A stretch of DNA of 43,109 nucleotides, taken from contig DASYCE010000012.1 of NCBI GenBank assembly GCA_036500345.1, positions 1-43,109 of the forward strand, read 5' to 3'. This DNA comes from Gemmatimonadales bacterium. GTDB taxonomy: Bacteria > Gemmatimonadota > Gemmatimonadetes > Gemmatimonadales > GWC2-71-9. A model generated the notes under the pieces. That model saw nothing but the letters and a program-made list of their open reading frames with translations, ran no database searches and was not told the origin of the DNA. The position numbers and the translations under genes are program-made. Position 1 is the first letter of the stretch. Every line of letters begins with the position of its first letter. Below, piece after piece: positions 8,762 through 25,035 of the stretch.

Positions 8762-9403
8762 ATGGCCCCTGCATCCCGTCGCGGGTTGACGGTCATCGAT
8801 CATCCGCTCATCCGGCACAAGATCGCCCTCCTCCGCGACGCGACGACGTCGACCAGGGACTTCAAGCAACTGGTCGGCGAAATCGCCGCGCTGATGACGT
8901 ACGAGGTGACGCGCGACCTCCCGACCGAGCCGGTCGAGGTCGTGACGCCGCTGGAGACCACCACCGGCGAGCGGGTCAGCGGGAAGATCGCCCTGGTGCC
9001 GATCCTTCGCGCCGGCCTCGGAATGGTGGACGGAATCGTCCAGCTGATACCGAACGCGCGGGTCGGGCACATCGGGCTCTATCGTGATCACGTGACGCTC
9101 CAGCCGGTGTCGTATTACTTCAAGGTTCCGACGCCGGCCCCCGATCATCGCTTCTTTCTTCTCGACCCGATGCTGGCGACCGGCGGCTCGGCCATCGCTG
9201 CCGCGGCCGAACTCCGGCGGGCCGGCGTGACCGACATTTCGCTCCTCTGCCTGGTTGCCGCCCCCGAGGGCGTGGCTGCATTCACGAGTGCGCACGCCGA
9301 TATTCCGATCTACGCAGCCGCCTTCGACCGGGAGTTGAACTCCCTCGGCTACATTCTTCCAGGCCTCGGCGACGCCGGGGACCGCCTCTTCGGAACAAAA
9401 TGA
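8762..9403 (+). CDS. upp: Uracil phosphoribosyltransferase
   Basis: This is a 213-residue enzyme of normal length for Upp, converting uracil and PRPP to UMP in the pyrimidine salvage pathway. Visible motifs are IDHPLIRHKIALLRD at the N terminus, PILRAGLGMVDG, the PRPP-binding loop LLDPMLATGGSAIAAA and the uracil-binding end LNSLGYILPGLGDAGDRLFGT. I chose ATG 8762; the open frame extends far upstream through the antisense of the DUF4019-like gene but has no family match there. The stop overlaps the next gene's ATG by 4 bp, which places it first in the operon reaching to the Nudix gene. Confidence 0.97.
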   Translation: MAPASRRGLTVIDHPLIRHKIALLRDATTSTRDFKQLVGEIAALMTYEVTRDLPTEPVEVVTPLETTTGERVSGKIALVPILRAGLGMVDGIVQLIPNARVGHIGLYRDHVTLQPVSYYFKVPTPAPDHRFFLLDPMLATGGSAIAAAAELRRAGVTDISLLCLVAAPEGVAAFTSAHADIPIYAAAFDRELNSLGYILPGLGDAGDRLFGTK

Positions 9404-10752
9404 GCGCTCCTCGTACCCTGACATTCTTCGGCGGCGCAGCGACCGCAACCGGTTCGATGATTCTGCTCGAAGCGGCCGGCGCGCGCGTCCTCCTCGATGC
9501 GGGGCTCTTCCAGGGGAATGTGGCCCAGGCGGACCAGAGCAACCGCGATCTCCCGCTCGATCCGGCCCGGGTCGACGCGATCCTCCTCTCCGATGCCGGG
9601 CTCGCCTCCGGTGGCCGGGCACCCCAGCTGGTGCGCCACGGCTACAAGGGGCCGATCTACGCCACCCCCGCCACGCGCGACGGCATCGCCATCCTTCTGG
9701 CCGAGACGGCGCTCGAGCTGGAGGCCCGGGGACACCTGCTCTATTCGCTGGAGGATGTCTTCGCCACGCTGCGCCAGACCGTCGGGCAGCCGTGCCGCCG
9801 TGCATTGCACCTCCGCCGCAACCTGGTCTTCGAATTCACCGAGGCGGGGCACACGCTCGGCTCGGCCAGCATCGAATTGCGGACCGGTGAAGGCGGGTCG
9901 CATCGGATCGTGTATTCGGGCTGCATCGGGCGCCCCGGGACGACAGTCTTCCGCGACGCCGATCCCAACCCGGGCGAGGTCGATACCCTGATCATCGGCT
10001 CACCATTCGCGCATCTGCGCCACCCGATGTTCAGTGACGCGCGCGAACGGATCGCCGCCGTGATCAACGACACCGTGGCGCGCGGCGGGCAGATCATCGT
10101 GCCGGCGGCGACGATCGGACCGATTCACGAGTTCGTGCGTGTGGTGCAGGAACTCTGGCATCGCGGCGCGATTCCCGAAATCCCGATCTGGATGGACGTC
10201 CCGACTCCGGTGTCGCTCACGACCGTGTTGCGGATGCATCCCGAGACGATCGCGGCAGGCGAGCGTGCCTATCTCGACGAGACCGGCGCCTTCGACCGAT
10301 CGCTGCTCCACTATCTCCCGCAGGGAAAGCGCGACGTCGTCGCCACGCTCGAGGGCCCCGCGATCATCGTGGCGCCCAACGAGACCTGCGACGCCGGCCG
10401 CTCGGCGTTTCACCTCCGTCGCTGCCTCGGCGATCCACGCCACACGATTCTTCTCACCGCGTTTCAGGAGGAAGGTTCGATCGGCCGGCTCCTCCAGGAC
10501 GGCGCGACGTCGGTGGAGCTCGACGGCGCGGTGATCGAGCGCCGCGCGGCGATCGAAACGATGACTGCGTACTCCGGCTTCGCCGATGGCGAGGAGATGC
10601 GCGGCTGGATCCGTTCTCTTGGTGGTCCGGTGAAACGTGCCTTCGTGGTGCAGGGCGACGACCTGGCCGTCGCGATGATGGTGACGATTCTCCGCGAAGA
10701 AGGAGTTCGCGACGTCATCGTGCCGCGCCGCGGGGAGTCCTTTCCGTTCTGA
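9400..10752 (+). CDS. Inactivated metallo-beta-lactamase/beta-CASP paralogue
   Basis: This 450-residue protein aligns along its whole length with the intact MBL/beta-CASP enzyme two genes downstream (FFGGAATATGSMILLE against FWGAAGQVTGSCHLLE; LLDAGLFQG against LLDCGMFQG). The zinc-binding positions are changed: HAHIDH is replaced by DAGLAS (residues 65-70), the motif 4 Asp in SGDIGR is Cys, and the His of YSAHAG becomes YSGFAD. Only the motif 3 His (AGHTLGSA) remains. It therefore probably has no hydrolytic activity but keeps the fold, suggesting a structural or regulatory subunit, perhaps a partner of the active copy. Reading frame, codon use and start overlap with upp (ATGA) are normal, so it is not a pseudogene by decay. 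Confidence 0.85.
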   Translation: MSAPRTLTFFGGAATATGSMILLEAAGARVLLDAGLFQGNVAQADQSNRDLPLDPARVDAILLSDAGLASGGRAPQLVRHGYKGPIYATPATRDGIAILLAETALELEARGHLLYSLEDVFATLRQTVGQPCRRALHLRRNLVFEFTEAGHTLGSASIELRTGEGGSHRIVYSGCIGRPGTTVFRDADPNPGEVDTLIIGSPFAHLRHPMFSDARERIAAVINDTVARGGQIIVPAATIGPIHEFVRVVQELWHRGAIPEIPIWMDVPTPVSLTTVLRMHPETIAAGERAYLDETGAFDRSLLHYLPQGKRDVVATLEGPAIIVAPNETCDAGRSAFHLRRCLGDPRHTILLTAFQEEGSIGRLLQDGATSVELDGAVIERRAAIETMTAYSGFADGEEMRGWIRSLGGPVKRAFVVQGDDLAVAMMVTILREEGVRDVIVPRRGESFPF

Positions 10753-10784: not shown

Positions 10785-11342
10785 GTGGGAGCGGTTGCGT
10801 GCATCTATGTCGTGTCGTTGGCCGATGTCATCCGGACCGCTCGCCGCGACGAGCGCCGCCCCTCCGACGCGATCGTTGTCCTTGGCGCCGCGCAGTACAA
10901 CGGTCACCCGTCACCGGTCCTCAAGGCTCGACTTGACCACGCCTTCGATCTCTATCGGCAGCATCTCGCCCGATTCATCATCGTGACCGGCGGCATCGGC
11001 GAAGGCGACCGGATGAGCGAATCGACCGCGGGCCAGAAATACCTCGTGGCTGCCGGGGTGCCGGCCGATTCGGTGGTCCTCGAGGCCGGCACGAGCACCG
11101 CGACGTCGATCGATTCGGTCGCACAATACCTGCACTTCCAGGGGATCTCGCGGGTGATCCTGGTCAGCGATCCGTTCCACATGGCGCGCCTCCATCTCGA
11201 AGCGCGCCGCGTCGGGCTCGAGGCGTACACCTCGCCGACCCGCACTTCGCCGATCTCGCGCAACTTCTCGACCCAACTCGGATACTTTCTGGCGGAGGCC
11301 GCCAAGGTTCCGCTCATCTTCGTCAAAGGACTGCTGTCGTGA
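10785..11342 (+). CDS. DUF218/YdcF-like (SanA/ElyC family) membrane-anchored protein
   Basis: The DUF218 core is clear: SDAIVVLGAAQYNGHPSPVL, quoted in full at 20 residues, then RFIIVTGGIGEGDRMSE, VLEAGTSTATSI and VILVSDPFHMARLHLEA. The YdcF/SanA/ElyC family acts at the cell envelope, with roles in peptidoglycan or membrane integrity reported for some members; the reaction is unknown. With GTG 10785 the protein is 185 residues but begins inside a hydrophobic segment. The same frame is open back to the preceding stop (TRRARPWIAGAVGAV...), so a non-ATG start near 10749, which would complete a membrane helix, is possible. Its stop overlaps the next GTG (GTGA). Confidence 0.82.
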   Translation: MGAVACIYVVSLADVIRTARRDERRPSDAIVVLGAAQYNGHPSPVLKARLDHAFDLYRQHLARFIIVTGGIGEGDRMSESTAGQKYLVAAGVPADSVVLEAGTSTATSIDSVAQYLHFQGISRVILVSDPFHMARLHLEARRVGLEAYTSPTRTSPISRNFSTQLGYFLAEAAKVPLIFVKGLLS

Positions 11343-12742
11343 CCATTGCAGTGACCTTCTGGGGCGCCGCCGGGCAGGTGACCGGTTCGTGCCATCTGCT
11401 CGAGTGGAGTGGGCGCCGCGTCCTCCTCGATTGCGGCATGTTCCAGGGCAAGCGCGCCGATGCCGCGAAGCTCAACGCGACGATGTCGTTCGATCCGCGC
11501 CAGCTCGATGCCGTGGTCGTGAGTCACGCACACATCGATCACACCGGACGTCTGCCGCTGCTCACGGCGCACCAGTTCAACAAGACGATCCATGCCACGC
11601 CGGCGACGCGAGATCTTGCCGCTTCGATGCTGCCCGATTCGGCGCACATCCAGGAGAGCGACTTCCTCTATCTCAAGAAGAAGGGACGCGCGGCTCCGGA
11701 GTCGGCGCCGCTGTATACCATGCCCGATGCCCTCAGGGTGATGGACTTGATCGAATCCCATCCGTACGAACGGCCGTTCACGGTGGCGCAGGAGCTGACC
11801 GTGACCTATCGGGACGCGGGGCACATCATCGGGAGCGCCAATGTCGACGTGCAGTTCGGCGGTTCGACGCCGCACCGGCTGGTCTTTTCCGGCGACATCG
11901 GCCGGTGGGGACAGCCGATCATCCGCGATCCCACCGGCCCGCGCGGCGCGATCGACACGCTGATCATCGAGAGCACTTACGCGCTCAAGAATCACGACAC
12001 GTCGAACACCGCGACCGATCATCTCGGTGAAATCGTCCGCCGGATCGCGGCGCGAAAGGGGCTGGTCCTGATTCCGTCATTTGCACTCGGCCGCACGCAG
12101 GAGCTGATCTACGCCCTCCATCAGCTCGCCGATGCGAAGCAGATTCCGCAGATCCCCATCTATATCGATTCGCCGCTCGCCGTCGAGGCGACCGCGGTCT
12201 TCCGCATGCACCCCGAACTCTTCGATCAATCGGAGGAGCTGATCCGGGCTGATTCGAGACTCTTCGACTACCATCTCGTCACCTATGTGCGCGACGTCAA
12301 CGAATCGAAGCAGCTCAATTCGCTGCAGGGTCCCGCGATCATCATCGCGGCGTCGGGGATGGCGGAGAACGGACGGATCACCCATCATCTCGCCAATCAT
12401 TGCGAGGACTCGCGCAACTGCATCCTCCTCGTCGGGTACCAGGCCGAAGGAACCCTCGGCCGTCGCATCCAGGATGGGCAGCGCGATGTCCGGATTCTTG
12501 GCGAGCCGCATCACATCACTGCCGAAGTCGCAACGATCGACGGCTACTCGGCCCACGCCGGGCGCGACGAATTGCGCCGCTGGGTTCGCGAGCTCGGCGG
12601 CCCGATTCAGCGGGCGTTCTGCGTGCACGGCGAACCGGAGTCGCTCGTCGCGATGCAGAAGATCCTGCAGGAAGAAGGGGTCAAGGAGGTCCACGTGCCG
12701 AAGCAGGGTGAGCAATTCGTGCTGGCCGGAGATGCGGCGTGA
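11339..12742 (+). CDS. MBL-fold/beta-CASP RNA-processing exonuclease-like protein
   Basis: This is a 467-residue protein with intact metal ligands: motif 2 SHAHIDHTGRLP (His63, His65, Asp67, His68), motif 3 AGHIIGSA, motif 4 SGDIGR, then ESTYALKNH, the beta-CASP signature ASGMAENGRITHHL and the motif C His in GYSAHAGRDEL. This is the CPSF-73-like bacterial group typified by Thermus TTHA0252, a ribonuclease of similar length, so an RNA-degrading or RNA-processing role in the cytosol is likely. GTG start overlaps the DUF218 stop, and its stop overlaps the Nudix GTG. Its inactivated paralogue lies two genes upstream in the same operon. Confidence 0.92.
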   Translation: MTIAVTFWGAAGQVTGSCHLLEWSGRRVLLDCGMFQGKRADAAKLNATMSFDPRQLDAVVVSHAHIDHTGRLPLLTAHQFNKTIHATPATRDLAASMLPDSAHIQESDFLYLKKKGRAAPESAPLYTMPDALRVMDLIESHPYERPFTVAQELTVTYRDAGHIIGSANVDVQFGGSTPHRLVFSGDIGRWGQPIIRDPTGPRGAIDTLIIESTYALKNHDTSNTATDHLGEIVRRIAARKGLVLIPSFALGRTQELIYALHQLADAKQIPQIPIYIDSPLAVEATAVFRMHPELFDQSEELIRADSRLFDYHLVTYVRDVNESKQLNSLQGPAIIIAASGMAENGRITHHLANHCEDSRNCILLVGYQAEGTLGRRIQDGQRDVRILGEPHHITAEVATIDGYSAHAGRDELRRWVRELGGPIQRAFCVHGEPESLVAMQKILQEEGVKEVHVPKQGEQFVLAGDAA

Positions 12743-13284
12743 CGCTGATCAGCAGCGAGCGAGTCTACAATGGTCGCATTGTGTCGCTCGATGTCGACAC
12801 CGTCCGCTTTCCGAACGGCGTGGTCGGCACGCTCGAGATGTTGCGCCATCCCGGTGCGGCGGCGGTGGTCCCGTTCCTCGACGACCCGGCCAGCGACGAC
12901 CCCCGCGTCCTCCTGATCCATCAGTTCCGGCACGCGACCGGCGGCATGCTGTGGGAGATTCCGGCCGGCCGGCGCGATGGCGACGAAGCACCCGAGGAGA
13001 CGGCGCGCCGTGAGCTCGGCGAAGAAACCGGATACAGCTGCCGCACGCTGCGCCGCCTGACCCGGATCTGGACCACGCCCGGATTCACCAACGAGACGAT
13101 CGACCTCTTTCTCGCAACCGATCTCACCCCGGGCGAGACGCGGCACGAAGCCGACGAGATTCTCGAGATTCATCCGATCCGATGGTCGGCGGTCCGCGGG
13201 ATGATCCGGGAGGGCGAGATCACTGACGGCAAGACGCTCTCGGCGCTGCTCTATGTCGCGTCGGAGGTTCGCGGCGGCCGGTGA
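12739..13284 (+). CDS. Nudix hydrolase, ADP-ribose pyrophosphatase type
   Basis: This 181-residue protein has a complete Nudix box Gx5Ex7REuxEExGu: GRRDGDEAPEETARREL followed by GEETGY. Preceding it are IHQFRHATGGMLWEIPAG, typical of the ADP-ribose pyrophosphatase group (YRP or HATG in NudF-like enzymes), and after it PGFTNETIDLFLA. Members hydrolyse ADP-ribose and related nucleoside diphosphate sugars. It starts at GTG 12739 with 4-bp overlap and is the last gene of the operon that begins at upp. Confidence 0.92.
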   Translation: MTLISSERVYNGRIVSLDVDTVRFPNGVVGTLEMLRHPGAAAVVPFLDDPASDDPRVLLIHQFRHATGGMLWEIPAGRRDGDEAPEETARRELGEETGYSCRTLRRLTRIWTTPGFTNETIDLFLATDLTPGETRHEADEILEIHPIRWSAVRGMIREGEITDGKTLSALLYVASEVRGGR

Positions 13285-13324
13285 TTCCGATCGTCTGACC
13301 TTCTCACCCGGCTCGCGGCCCGGG

Positions 13325-13330
13325 TAGTTT
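13325..13330 (+). promoter_or_regulatory. -10-like hexamer of holA fusion gene (leaderless type)
   Basis: TAGTTT ends 5 nt before ATG 13336 with no Shine-Dalgarno. The -35 region is not conserved. Confidence 0.45.
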
Positions 13331-13335
13331 GCAGC

Positions 13336-15291
13336 ATGGCTGCGACCGATCTCTCGGGGCTCCGCCGCTCACTCGCGAAAGCGCCGCCCGCAGGCTCCTA
13401 CTACATCTTTGGCGCCGAGGGAATCTTCAAGGACGAGGCGCTCGCGCTGCTGCTCGACCGCGCCCTCGATCCCGCGACCCGCGACTTCAATCTCGACATC
13501 CATTCAGCGCAGCAGCTCGACCCCGGCGCGCTCGCCGCGGCATGCGCGACGTTGCCGATGATGGCCGAGCGGCGAGTCGTTGTCGTACGCGACATCGAGG
13601 CGTGGAAGAAGAAGAGCAAGGCGAAGCTCCCGGCGGTGGAGTACCTCCGTCGTCCGATGCCCGAGACGGTTCTGGTCCTGGTGCAGGCCAACGACGACGA
13701 TCCCGACAATGATCTCGCCTCGCAATGCACCGCGATCGAATGCCGCGCACCGGTCGGTGACCAGCTCGAGGCGTGGCTCGATGCCCGGCTCGCGGCGCAG
13801 CAGGTCGAGATCGCGGCGGCGGCGCGCGAACACCTGCTCCGCGCCACCGGCGGCGATCTCGGCATGCTGACCGCCGAAGTGGAGAAGCTCGCAGCACTCG
13901 ACGTGCGCGGCCCCGTGAATACCGAGATGGTGGCGGCACTCGTTGGTGTGCGCTTCGGCGAGACCGCCGATGACTGGCGTGACGCTGTCCTGTCGGACGA
14001 CACCGCCCGCGCGCTGACCACCCTCCCCGATCTGCTGGAAGTGAGCGGCAATTCCGGGGTGCGGCTCGTCTCGCTTCTGGGGACGTCGCTCCTCGTCCTG
14101 CGATGGGCGCGGGTGACGGCCGAGCGGCGGAAGATTCGCGATCGCGCGCTGGCGGAACAGGTGAAGTCGTTCTGCTTTGCCAATCGCCCCGGCGTCGGAA
14201 GTTACGGCCCCTTCGCGCAGCTGGCCGGTGCCGTCGTCGGCCGCTGGCCGCTGGCGCGCCTTCGCGCGGCCACCGCCGCGACCCTCCAGGCCGACGTCGC
14301 ACTCAAGGCGACCCGAATCTCGGACGAAGCTGGAGTGGTGACCGATCTCGTTCTCTCGCTGGCGGCGTCGCGGATCAAGCGCGCGGCGACAGTGGCGACG
14401 CTGCTGCTGCTGCTGGTGCTCGGCATCCGGCCGGCATCCGCCCAGGCGGCGCTCCTGCCGACGTCGCCGCGATTCAGGGAGATCGTGCAGCTGGCGCAGG
14501 ATGGATACGGCGATTCGGCCCGCGCTGTGATTGGCCGGGTCCTGGCCCGCACGGCGAAGACCGATTCGAACTATCCCGAGGCGCTCTACACTGCCGGCGC
14601 GGTCGCCAACACCGGCGACGGGATGCGTTCGCGCTTCGCGGACATCGTGGTGAACTATTCGTCATCGGCATGGGCCGACAAGGCGCTGCTCCGCCTCGCA
14701 CAGCTCGACTACGGTAATGGCGACATGACCAGCGTGATGAATCGCGTCACGCGGCTGTTCACGGACTATCCCGCATCGCCGGTCATTCCGAACGCTGCAC
14801 TCTGGGGCGCGCGGGCGGCGTTCGATCGCCAGAAACTCCAGCAGGGGTGCGACTGGCTGACGCGAGGCATTGCCGCCGCGGGCGACGACTTCGAAGTCCG
14901 CAATCAGTTGCAGTTCGCCAAGCAGCGGTGCGACATCGGTGGAGGCGTCCAGCTCGCGCCGATGAATCGCGACTCGCTCCGCGCGCCGCCGTCATTCCCC
15001 GACACCTCCCGGCGAAGCGCGAGCCAGTCACCCCCGGCCGCTCCGCCACCGGCAAAGGGAGCCGAGGGGATCTGGCGGATACAGGTCACCGCGGTGAGCG
15101 ACCAGGCGGTGGTGCGCCGCGTGGTCCAGAAGATCGAACACGCCGGCTTCAAGGCGTACACCGTCCGCGGACCCGGGAAGCTCACCAAGGTGCAGGCCGG
15201 GCCGTTCGCCACCCGGGCCGCGGCGGCGGCGGCGCTTTCCAGGGTGGCCGCGGCCGCCGGCGGCAAGCCGTTCATCACCACGGCGCCGTAA
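13336..15291 (+). CDS. holA: DNA polymerase III delta subunit fused to a membrane-segment/TPR-like/SPOR protein
   Basis: This single 651-codon frame holds two units. Residues 1 to about 345 form a complete HolA-like clamp-loader delta (YYIFGAEGIFKDEAL near the N terminus, PMMAERRVVVVRDIEAW, ATGGDLGMLTAEVEKL, SGNSGVRLVSLL). Immediately after, residues about 351-373 read as a signal peptide or membrane helix (TVATLLLLLVLGIRPASAQA). Residues 375-545 are helical repeats with a TPR-like look, then a Pro-rich linker, and the last 75 residues are a SPOR domain (IWRIQVTAVSD ... VQAGPFATRAAA), which in other proteins binds denuded peptidoglycan. No stop separates them. Either this is a true fusion, or the second half is translated separately from an internal start such as GTG 14392, which has no good ribosome site. 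Confidence 0.8.
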   Translation: MAATDLSGLRRSLAKAPPAGSYYIFGAEGIFKDEALALLLDRALDPATRDFNLDIHSAQQLDPGALAAACATLPMMAERRVVVVRDIEAWKKKSKAKLPAVEYLRRPMPETVLVLVQANDDDPDNDLASQCTAIECRAPVGDQLEAWLDARLAAQQVEIAAAAREHLLRATGGDLGMLTAEVEKLAALDVRGPVNTEMVAALVGVRFGETADDWRDAVLSDDTARALTTLPDLLEVSGNSGVRLVSLLGTSLLVLRWARVTAERRKIRDRALAEQVKSFCFANRPGVGSYGPFAQLAGAVVGRWPLARLRAATAATLQADVALKATRISDEAGVVTDLVLSLAASRIKRAATVATLLLLLVLGIRPASAQAALLPTSPRFREIVQLAQDGYGDSARAVIGRVLARTAKTDSNYPEALYTAGAVANTGDGMRSRFADIVVNYSSSAWADKALLRLAQLDYGNGDMTSVMNRVTRLFTDYPASPVIPNAALWGARAAFDRQKLQQGCDWLTRGIAAAGDDFEVRNQLQFAKQRCDIGGGVQLAPMNRDSLRAPPSFPDTSRRSASQSPPAAPPPAKGAEGIWRIQVTAVSDQAVVRRVVQKIEHAGFKAYTVRGPGKLTKVQAGPFATRAAAAAALSRVAAAAGGKPFITTAP

Positions 15292-15338
15292 CCGGCGATC
15301 TCGCCGCGCGTTTCCCTTCTTTCCCGGTCGTTTCTTCA

Positions 15339-15344
15339 TAGACT
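15339..15344 (+). promoter_or_regulatory. -10-like hexamer of mutS (leaderless type)
   Basis: TAGACT ends 6 nt before GTG 15351, in the 59-bp gap after the SPOR gene; no Shine-Dalgarno is present. Confidence 0.45.
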
Positions 15345-15350
15345 TGTCGC

Positions 15351-18011
15351 GTGTCCGACTCCGCGACTCCGCTGCTGGCGCAATACCGGGAAATCAAGGC
15401 GCGTCACACCAACGCGATCCTTTTTTTCCGGATGGGCGATTTCTATGAAATGTTCTACGACGACGCCCAGATCGCCGCGCGCGCCCTCAACATCACCCTG
15501 ACGGCTCGCGGGGACGGAGTGCCGCTGGCCGGCGTCCCGGTGAAGGCCGCCGCGGGATACCTCCGCCAGTTCATCGCCCAGGGCTACCGGGTCGCGATCT
15601 GCGAGCAGGTCGAGGACCCGAAGGTCGCCCGCGGCATCGTCAAGCGCGCCGTCGTCGAGACGATCACCCCCGGCGCCTTTCTCGACGAGGAATGGACGCC
15701 CGGCGCGCGCAACAACTGGCTGGTCGGGGTCCTCCCGGTCGAACACCAGGTCGGCGTCGCCGCGATCGATCTTTCGACCGGGGAATTCACCCTCGAAACG
15801 GTCCCCGCCGATGCGCTTGATGAAGTGATCTCGCGGCTCAATCCCGCTGAAGTGGTGGTGCCGGGCGACGCCAGGATCACGCTTGACGAAGCGACACTTC
15901 GCAGTGCGCGCGAGGCGTGGGAGTTCGACGGCGACCTCGGCTCCGAGGAACTCGCCCGCCGCTTCAATCTCGCGTCGCTCGACGGCCTCGGTCTCGCCGG
16001 CGGCGATCGCGCGGCCGTTGGCGCGGCAGGTGCCCTGCTCCGCTACATCGCCGAACTGCAGCCGAGCGGACTGCCGCACTTGGCGCGCCCGCAGGTGCGC
16101 CGCAGTGAAGAGCTGTGCTGGATCGACGAGATGACGCGCCGCAACCTCGAACTGGTGGAACCGCTTCGCGCCGGCGCGAAGGGCGTCACGCTGCTCGAAA
16201 CGCTCGACCGGACGGTGACGCCGATGGGCGCGCGTCTCCTGAGGCAGTGGATCGTCTCGCCGCTGCGTGATCCGGCGCGGATCACCGTCCGCCTTGATGC
16301 CGTCGACATTCTCGTCGCGGCGGGGCGCGCCCGCGCCGGTCTCCGCGAGGCACTCGACGGCGTGCGCGACGTGGAGCGTCTCGCCGCGCGTGCCGCCTCG
16401 GGCCGTGCGACGCCGCGCGAACTCGGCGCCCTGCGCGATTCCCTGCAACGGCTGCCACAGGTGCATTCCTCGCTCACCGATCTCGCGTCGCTCTCCACCA
16501 CGCGATCGTCGGACTCGATGGCGCTCCTGCCGCACGCCGCCGCAACGCTTGACCCGCTGACCGACCTTGCAGCAGAACTCGGACGCGCACTGGTCGAACG
16601 GCCGCCGGCTGCGCTCGCCGATGGCGACGTCATCGTGGCGGGATATGATGCCGAACTCGACGAGGTGCGCGCGCTCCGCGAAAACGGCAAGCGGGCGCTG
16701 GCCAGCATTCAGCAGCGCGAACGCGAGCGGACCGGGATTCAGTCGCTCAAGGTCGGCTACAACAAGGTGTTCGGGTACTACATCGAAGTGACGCACGCCA
16801 ACACCGCGTCGGTCCCCGCAGACTACGAACGGCGACAGACGTTGAGCGGCGCCGAGCGCTACGCGACGCCCGAACTCAAGGAATACGAAACCCGCGTCCT
16901 CGGCGCCGAGGAGCGGATCGCCGAGCAGGAGTCGGCGCTGTTCACCGCGTTGCGCAACCGCGTCGGCCGGGAGATCGATCGCATCCAGCGGACGGCGCAA
17001 CTCCTCGCCCGCATTGACGTCGTCGCGGCGCTGGCCGAGGTGGCGGCCACCCAGCAGTACACCAGGCCGGTGGTCCACGACGGCTTCGGCCTCAGGCTCA
17101 CGGCGTCGCGGCATCCGGTGATCGAACGGATGATGGCGCGCGAGCGGTTCGTCCCCAATGACGTGCGGTTCGACGAGGCGGCGCGGGTGCTGCTCGTGAC
17201 CGGGCCCAACATGGCCGGCAAGAGCACCATTCTGCGGCAGATCGGCCTCTGCGTGCTGCTGGCGCAGATCGGTTCATTCGTGCCGGCGGCCGAGGCGGAG
17301 ATTGGCGTCGCCGATCGCCTTTTCACGCGGGTCGGCGCGAGCGACAACCTGGCGCGCGGACAGTCGACCTTCATGGTCGAGATGAGCGAGACCAGCGCGA
17401 TCCTGCACAACGCGACCGCGCAATCGCTGGTACTGCTCGACGAGATCGGGCGCGGCACCAGCACCTATGATGGCGTCGCCATCGCATGGGCGGTGACCGA
17501 GCATCTGCACGACCGGATCGGCTGCCGCACCATGTTCGCCACGCACTACCACGAGCTGATGCAGCTGCCGGAAAAGCTGGCGCATGCGCGCAATCTCAAT
17601 GTCGCGGTGCGGGAGACCGACAAGGGGATCGTTTTCCTGCACCGCCTCGAGGCGGGCGGGACCGATCGATCGTACGGCATTCACGTCGCGCATCTCGCCG
17701 GGCTCCCCGGCAGCGTGGTCAATCGGGCCAGGGAGGTCCTTGTCACGCTCGAGGGCGATCACCGGGTAGTCGCCGGTGCGCCGCCGCGCGATGCCGACCC
17801 GGCGCAGCCCTCGCTCTTCGATGGTGCATCCGGTTCGTCGCCACGATCTCGTGATGCGCAGCCGCGCGATTTGTCCCCGAGCGACCAGCGGGCGATCACC
17901 CTCGCCCTCCGCCTCCGCGGCCTCGATCCCAACACGATGACGCCGATTCAGGCGCTGCAGGAGCTGGCGCGGATTCGCGACGAACTCGAAGATGCCCCGC
18001 CGCCAGCGTGA
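15351..18011 (+). CDS. mutS: DNA mismatch repair ATPase MutS
   Basis: This 886-residue protein has full MutS architecture. Domain I has the mismatch-probing FRMGDFYEMFYDDA (Phe-x-Glu motif, residues about 26-40), followed by connector, core and clamp domains. The ABC ATPase domain has Walker A GPNMAGKST (about residue 618), DNLARGQSTFMVEM signature region and Walker B LLDEIGRGTSTYDG, then the ATHYHEL switch. A C-terminal helix-turn-helix region ends in PIQALQELARIRDEL. It recognises mispaired bases and recruits MutL; mutL is not in this window. The start is GTG 15351. Confidence 0.98.
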   Translation: MSDSATPLLAQYREIKARHTNAILFFRMGDFYEMFYDDAQIAARALNITLTARGDGVPLAGVPVKAAAGYLRQFIAQGYRVAICEQVEDPKVARGIVKRAVVETITPGAFLDEEWTPGARNNWLVGVLPVEHQVGVAAIDLSTGEFTLETVPADALDEVISRLNPAEVVVPGDARITLDEATLRSAREAWEFDGDLGSEELARRFNLASLDGLGLAGGDRAAVGAAGALLRYIAELQPSGLPHLARPQVRRSEELCWIDEMTRRNLELVEPLRAGAKGVTLLETLDRTVTPMGARLLRQWIVSPLRDPARITVRLDAVDILVAAGRARAGLREALDGVRDVERLAARAASGRATPRELGALRDSLQRLPQVHSSLTDLASLSTTRSSDSMALLPHAAATLDPLTDLAAELGRALVERPPAALADGDVIVAGYDAELDEVRALRENGKRALASIQQRERERTGIQSLKVGYNKVFGYYIEVTHANTASVPADYERRQTLSGAERYATPELKEYETRVLGAEERIAEQESALFTALRNRVGREIDRIQRTAQLLARIDVVAALAEVAATQQYTRPVVHDGFGLRLTASRHPVIERMMARERFVPNDVRFDEAARVLLVTGPNMAGKSTILRQIGLCVLLAQIGSFVPAAEAEIGVADRLFTRVGASDNLARGQSTFMVEMSETSAILHNATAQSLVLLDEIGRGTSTYDGVAIAWAVTEHLHDRIGCRTMFATHYHELMQLPEKLAHARNLNVAVRETDKGIVFLHRLEAGGTDRSYGIHVAHLAGLPGSVVNRAREVLVTLEGDHRVVAGAPPRDADPAQPSLFDGASGSSPRSRDAQPRDLSPSDQRAITLALRLRGLDPNTMTPIQALQELARIRDELEDAPPPA

Positions 18012-24500: not shown

Positions 24501-24785
24501 TCATCTCCCTCGCTCCTCGCACCAGGCCGCGACATCATCGTTCAATCGCTGGTACGGCGCATCATAACCCGCCGACCGCGCACGGAATACTACGTCCCAC
24601 GCAGGGAGCCGGGTCCGGGTTTCACGTCGCCAGATCTCCCGCAGCTGACGGCGCAGGCGATTGCGAGCAACAGCGGTCCGGCGGAGCTTCGGCACGATCA
24701 CGCCGAGGCGGGGGAAACCCGCCTCGTTGTCGGTCCAGAAAATGTCGATGTGGGGCCCGTGCTGGCGATGGCCGGCGGTGAGCAC
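24501..24785 (-). CDS. rnpA: RNase P protein component
   Basis: This protein subunit binds RNase P RNA (rnpB, at 32.6-33.0 kb) to mature tRNA 5' ends. The RNR signature is clear: [19 protein letters not shown], with GVIVPK just before. From GTG 24785 it is 94 residues, but the frame continues upstream with conserved-looking RnpA sequence ([18 protein letters not shown]) before an in-frame TGA inside rpmH, and that stretch has no ATG, GTG or TTG. A CTG at 24810-24812 is one candidate start. The typical RnpA N terminus suggests that the longer form is real; the coordinates given are the conservative version. Confidence 0.88.
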
Positions 24786-24843
24786 GCGGCGAAGGTCTGC
24801 GGGGTGAACCAGCCGGCGGGAGCGCGGGAGGCGCTCGTCGCCG

Positions 24844-25002
24844 TCAGGTGCGGGCGTGCTTCGAGCCGAGGGAAACCGTCAGGCGCTTCCGACCCTTTTT
24901 CCGGCGGCGCGACAGGACGGCACGGCCCCAGCGGTCGGCCATCCGCTTGCGGAATCCATGCTTGGCGATCCGTCGCTTGTTGCGCGGACGATACGTCGGC
25001 AT
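24844..25002 (-). CDS. rpmH: 50S ribosomal protein L34
   Basis: This 52-residue protein is L34: [20 protein letters not shown], then [20 protein letters not shown] and a short tail [12 protein letters not shown]. The usual ends of L34 (KRTxQPxNxKR...HGFR.RM) are recognisable. An adjacent ATG at 25003-25005 could add one Met. It is divergent from dnaA across 145 bp and begins the rpmH-rnpA-yidD-yidC operon. Confidence 0.96.
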
Positions 25003-25035
25003 CATTGCAGTAACGACCCCTCTGAAGAGCCGGAC

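Follow-up and report, generated by a model that had tools for sequence, protein, structure and literature searches.

An open frame in a Gemmatimonadales bacterium joins a subunit of the DNA polymerase III clamp loader to a SPOR-domain protein, and it raises the question of whether the two are truly made as one polypeptide and, if so, whether that polypeptide stays whole. The frame lies in the window analysed here, a stretch of 43,109 nucleotides, at positions 13336-15291 of the forward strand. In the assembled sequence it runs from ATG to TAA through 651 amino acids without an internal stop, and the uninterrupted 651-codon frame described in the first-pass annotation was thus correctly placed. 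Its parts are as follows:

13336-14388, forward strand: holA part, the delta subunit of the DNA polymerase III clamp loader (residues 1-351; TIGR01128)
14383-14394, forward strand: fusion junction GCG GCG ACA GTG, where in relatives the stop overlaps the next start as (A/G)TGA or TGATG/TAATG
14392-14394, forward strand: in-frame GTG, the only plausible internal start near the junction, with background-level Shine-Dalgarno pairing
14392-14442, forward strand: segment VATLLLLLVLGIRPASA, apparently once the SPOR signal peptide; probable signal peptidase I site just ahead of Q370
14461-14946, forward strand: helical, TPR-like region (residues about 376-537), with weak BamD/YbgF similarity and helices in a low-confidence model
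15064-15279, forward strand: SPOR domain (residues 577-648; PF05036)

The NCBIfam holA profile TIGR01128 matches residues 22-341 over profile positions 2-315 of 316 (E 9e-47, 159.9 bits against a cut-off of 80), and the Pfam SPOR profile PF05036 matches residues 577-648 (E 3e-14, 53.5 bits against a gathering score of 21), so the earlier reading of a full-length delta followed by a C-terminal SPOR domain stands above both family cut-offs. The frame belongs by these matches to the HolA/delta family and its C-terminal part to the SPOR-domain family, with clamp loading and binding to denuded septal peptidoglycan as the predicted activities. Similarity to BamD/YbgF-like TPR proteins at residues 431-498 is weak, the scores of about 19-22 bits falling below the curated cut-offs of 90 for YbgF/CpoB (TIGR02795) and 81 for BamD (TIGR03302), and a single-sequence structure model of the fusion, with a mean pLDDT of 45, is not good enough for a fold comparison and backs the succession of helices and strands only weakly. 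Because alignments with relatives run to about residue 351 for delta and from about residue 353 for the SPOR protein, the frame is judged to join two whole proteins, which excludes a chance open frame. Both halves are conserved, with 61-70% identity to G009, a well assembled relative, and the window delta is 57-70% identical to the stand-alone delta proteins of its genus, which terminate immediately beyond the matching ...AA. A profile search of the genome returned a single holA match above the cut-off, the fused frame itself, so the fused ORF has to supply delta; a second, weak holA match sits in a 616-codon frame and probably represents another clamp-loader ATPase. The whole protein, used as a query against its own genome, gave one match, and the profile search found two SPOR domains.

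The first-pass annotation had proposed aligning close relatives in case the fusion is conserved, and that alignment spoke against conservation: holA and the SPOR gene are separate in all 38 related genomes read at the junction. The two genes overlap by four bases in 27 of these and by one base in four (31 of 38 together), five have both genes in the same frame with the stop intact and the start 7-25 bases further on, and the remaining two have another junction spacing. A six-frame search of 60 relatives likewise matched the protein as two pieces wherever both halves were found, and on contigs of named genomes the matches were to SPOR domains of Proteobacteria only. Within the genus, a TGA or TAA stop closes delta after ...KKAA or a similar ending and overlaps the SPOR start as ATGA/GTGA or TGATG/TAATG. 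Overlaps of four bases or one base are a layout associated with termination-reinitiation coupling (PMC10666635), and from this arrangement SPOR translation in the relatives is probably coupled to holA termination. Five genomes (G101, G274, G079, G108 and G085; loci L061-L065) carry holA and the SPOR gene in frame with a stop codon and a few bases between them, and there one stop-codon change or read-through would fuse the pair.

The pair also has conserved neighbours:

12739-13284, forward strand: NUDIX-like gene, upstream, found in the same place in relatives
15351-18011, forward strand: mutS, the next gene, with 74-77% identity to orthologues in G001, G004 and G009

In most relatives whose locus is long enough, mutS lies downstream of the pair. 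The gene arrangement NUDIX - holA - spor - mutS (window 12739-18011), including the coupling at the holA-spor junction, persists through much of the order, and this conserved holA-spor-mutS coupling is a more durable observation than the fusion. It raises the question of why a clamp-loader gene and a cell-wall-binding gene are translated together. Further upstream, two neighbouring metallo-beta-lactamase-fold genes (9394-10749 and 11339-12742) match each other at about 37-40% identity, apparently as products of an ancient tandem duplication; the second of them has a four-base overlap with each of its neighbours. The metallo-beta-lactamase-NUDIX pair, with its four-base overlap in the window, was considered as a control for the rate of fusion and rejected, the genes being kilobases apart in the listed same-genus genomes.

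At the window junction, delta reaches its usual last residues, ...ASRIKRAA, at 14388 and passes straight into TVATLLLLL, the codons after 14388 (ACA GTG GCG ACG CTG) placing the SPOR signal peptide in frame. The stop/start overlap of four bases or one base that marks the coupled pairs is absent here. Taking two bases out of an (A/G)TGA overlap in the ancestor would give exactly the window junction, with the stop and the SPOR start lost together; a larger deletion of 3n+2 bases is a possible alternative route, since the signal peptides of several relatives are a few residues longer. Comparison with relatives thus favours the lost stop codon, which the first-pass annotation had listed among its options. 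The membrane- or signal-like helix noted there is present as a hydrophobic segment that corresponds to the cleavable signal peptide of the separate SPOR protein in relatives: a leucine-rich stretch at about residues 353-363 precedes an A-S-A/Q site at 367-370, and the hydrophobic core LLLLLVLG followed by IRPASA/QA places AxA before Q as in the signal peptides of relatives, at the same position. By this resemblance, the helix is taken to be the old signal peptide of the separate SPOR protein, with its AxA-Q site kept.

The frequency of such junctions was assessed in 297 genomes of the phylum, 102 of the family and 288 of the order, of which 270 had a match. For the order, a junction-spanning profile was used, with matches listed down to about 174 bits. 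Among the matches listed from the 270 genomes, two junctions are free of stops, that of the window and that of G324, and in a further 12 genomes the two genes share a frame but are parted by one stop or more. A fused match should score above about 174 bits, as the in-frame pairs do, and a third close fusion is therefore unlikely; distant ones could be missed by the listing. G324, which falls in the same family but a different genus, has its fusion in a 649-codon span (L111, 1462-3408). Across the junction this gives ...RPRRATAAAG-M-SLVGVLLALIFLAAAPLRAQTDP..., in which the SPOR ATG is still in frame. Elsewhere in the genus of G324, delta is followed by a stop at each of ten loci from nine further genomes, most of them with an ATGA/GTGA overlap. 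Given the different genera, the different junction sequences and the stop after delta in the congeners of G324, the two fusions most likely arose separately. With two of 270 genomes fused among the matches listed, in different genera and at different junctions, this is not a conserved domain fusion; stop loss appears to have joined the pair at least twice, rarely and without conservation, and the result has the look of a minor accident in one lineage, not of a link built to connect replication with division. A search of the literature found no paper on such a delta-SPOR fusion.

A small deletion introduced in draft sequencing or assembly, the living organism having two normal overlapping genes, is an unlikely alternative. 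The change is only a few bases long and falls at a point where nearly every relative has two genes, frame transitions seen in single genomes or left unclustered are often sequencing errors (PMC3711429), and the window genome is a draft of 32 contigs in which a 16S rRNA gene was not found. Against this, the 176-kb contig was compared with G009 over 134 orthologous genes (130 kb). Nine split matches were seen, and nine in the reverse comparison; those inspected, not all by eye, proved to be neighbouring genes, pre-start extensions or frames on the opposite strand, and none was a clear frameshift inside a gene besides holA-spor, which was conspicuous as a frame of the window contig whose two halves are both long and well conserved. 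The contig shows no sign of a general indel problem, and a second, different fusion is present in G324; the fusion is probably not an artefact. The other suspicious spot is rpmH-rnpA (window 24504-25010, reverse strand), which adjoins a dnaA-like gene. In the family, rnpA mostly offers only CTG (14 loci) or TTG (3 loci) as a candidate start, and there the rpmH stop overlaps it by four bases. The window and G008 are shifted in frame by one base at this point and have no ATG, GTG or TTG start ahead of the conserved RnpA N-terminus. Since G008 is arranged alike, the idea of a second assembly indel at the rnpA start was dropped.

If the fusion is real, its product could still differ from a single precursor in two ways. 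The GTG at 14392, proposed in the first-pass annotation as an internal start, exists and is in frame just before the hydrophobic core, where the SPOR genes of relatives start, and G324 retains an in-frame ATG; the cell would then hold both fused delta-SPOR and free SPOR. This is quite unlikely. Pairing at this GTG, computed with the usual 16S tail assumed as anti-Shine-Dalgarno since no 16S gene was found in the assembly, is -3.1 kcal/mol, the 41st percentile of background, against an average of -6.0 in 16 relatives; at the former SPOR start of G324 it is +0.4, so that both fusions are at background level. Such loss of pairing is only suggestive as support for fusion, because three of the unfused relatives are about as weak as the window. 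Reinitiation, moreover, declines within about 20 bases (PMC10666635) and no termination lies near the GTG to supply it, and the n-region of MATLLLLLVLG has no basic residue. If the sequence is correct, translation begun at 13336 meets no stop at the junction, and each ribosome that reads through yields the fusion; an internal start could add free SPOR only, never free delta. The other departure, also put forward in the first-pass annotation, is an uncleaved fusion that anchors delta to the membrane or at the division site and connects clamp loading with the cell wall. Its topology is plausible from the sequence, with delta inside, basic residues before the hydrophobic segment and SPOR outside, but it lacks comparative support: only two of 270 genomes are fused among the matches listed, all other relatives manage without a tether, and the hydrophobic segment resembles a typical cleavable signal whose AxA-Q site is common to relatives with separate SPOR proteins. 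A lasting tether is thus very unlikely, and as the main explanation it was set aside for want of conservation of the fusion. There is a similarly slender chance that the fusion is expressed and incompletely cleaved, with part of delta anchored in the inner membrane and the SPOR domain outside. Were that so, the recurrence of the fusion in two genera would mirror a genuine functional connection of clamp loading with a cell-wall protein, one served elsewhere by the coupled separate pair.

The explanation favoured here, with somewhat better than even confidence, is a real, lineage-specific stop-loss fusion of a coupled pair, giving one precursor that is probably split by signal peptidase. In the ancestor, holA and an exported TPR-SPOR gene would have been separate, with overlapping stop and start codons and the second probably coupled to the first. 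We infer that removal of two bases from (A/G)TGA then abolished the stop and the start and joined the frames at once, so that ribosomes from 13336 would make one 651-residue precursor. Basic residues ahead of the core of a Sec signal hold its N-terminal side back in the cytosol. The delta part would accordingly stay cytosolic and retain its activity within the fusion, while the retained signal segment, with the basic R-I-K-R of delta before the hydrophobic core, would engage the export machinery and carry the SPOR part to the periplasm; export with a 351-residue cytosolic domain ahead of the signal is plausible. Signal peptidase I would probably cut at ASA/QA, releasing a normal mature SPOR protein and leaving delta with a short hydrophobic tail.

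If this stop-loss reading is right, a four-base stop/start overlap can give way, in one small step, to a polypeptide that joins a cytosolic replication protein to an exported one, and the intervening signal peptide possibly rescues both products. It also carries a warning for annotation, namely that relatives should be checked before such an ORF is called a membrane-tethered replisome.

Compared with coupled gene pairs having overlaps of four bases or one base (PMC10666635), the holA-spor junctions of relatives are the same, whereas the window has lost the overlap and reads both frames as one. The window protein matches HolA (TIGR01128) at full length but carries about 300 extra C-terminal residues, comprising the signal segment and SPOR. 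DedD and FtsN are bitopic SPOR-domain proteins of the divisome. The window protein resembles them in having a C-terminal SPOR domain after a linker and a plausible N-in topology, its match to DedD being weak and far below the family cut-off. Unlike DedD and FtsN, its cytosolic N-terminal part is a replication protein, and its hydrophobic segment looks cleavable.
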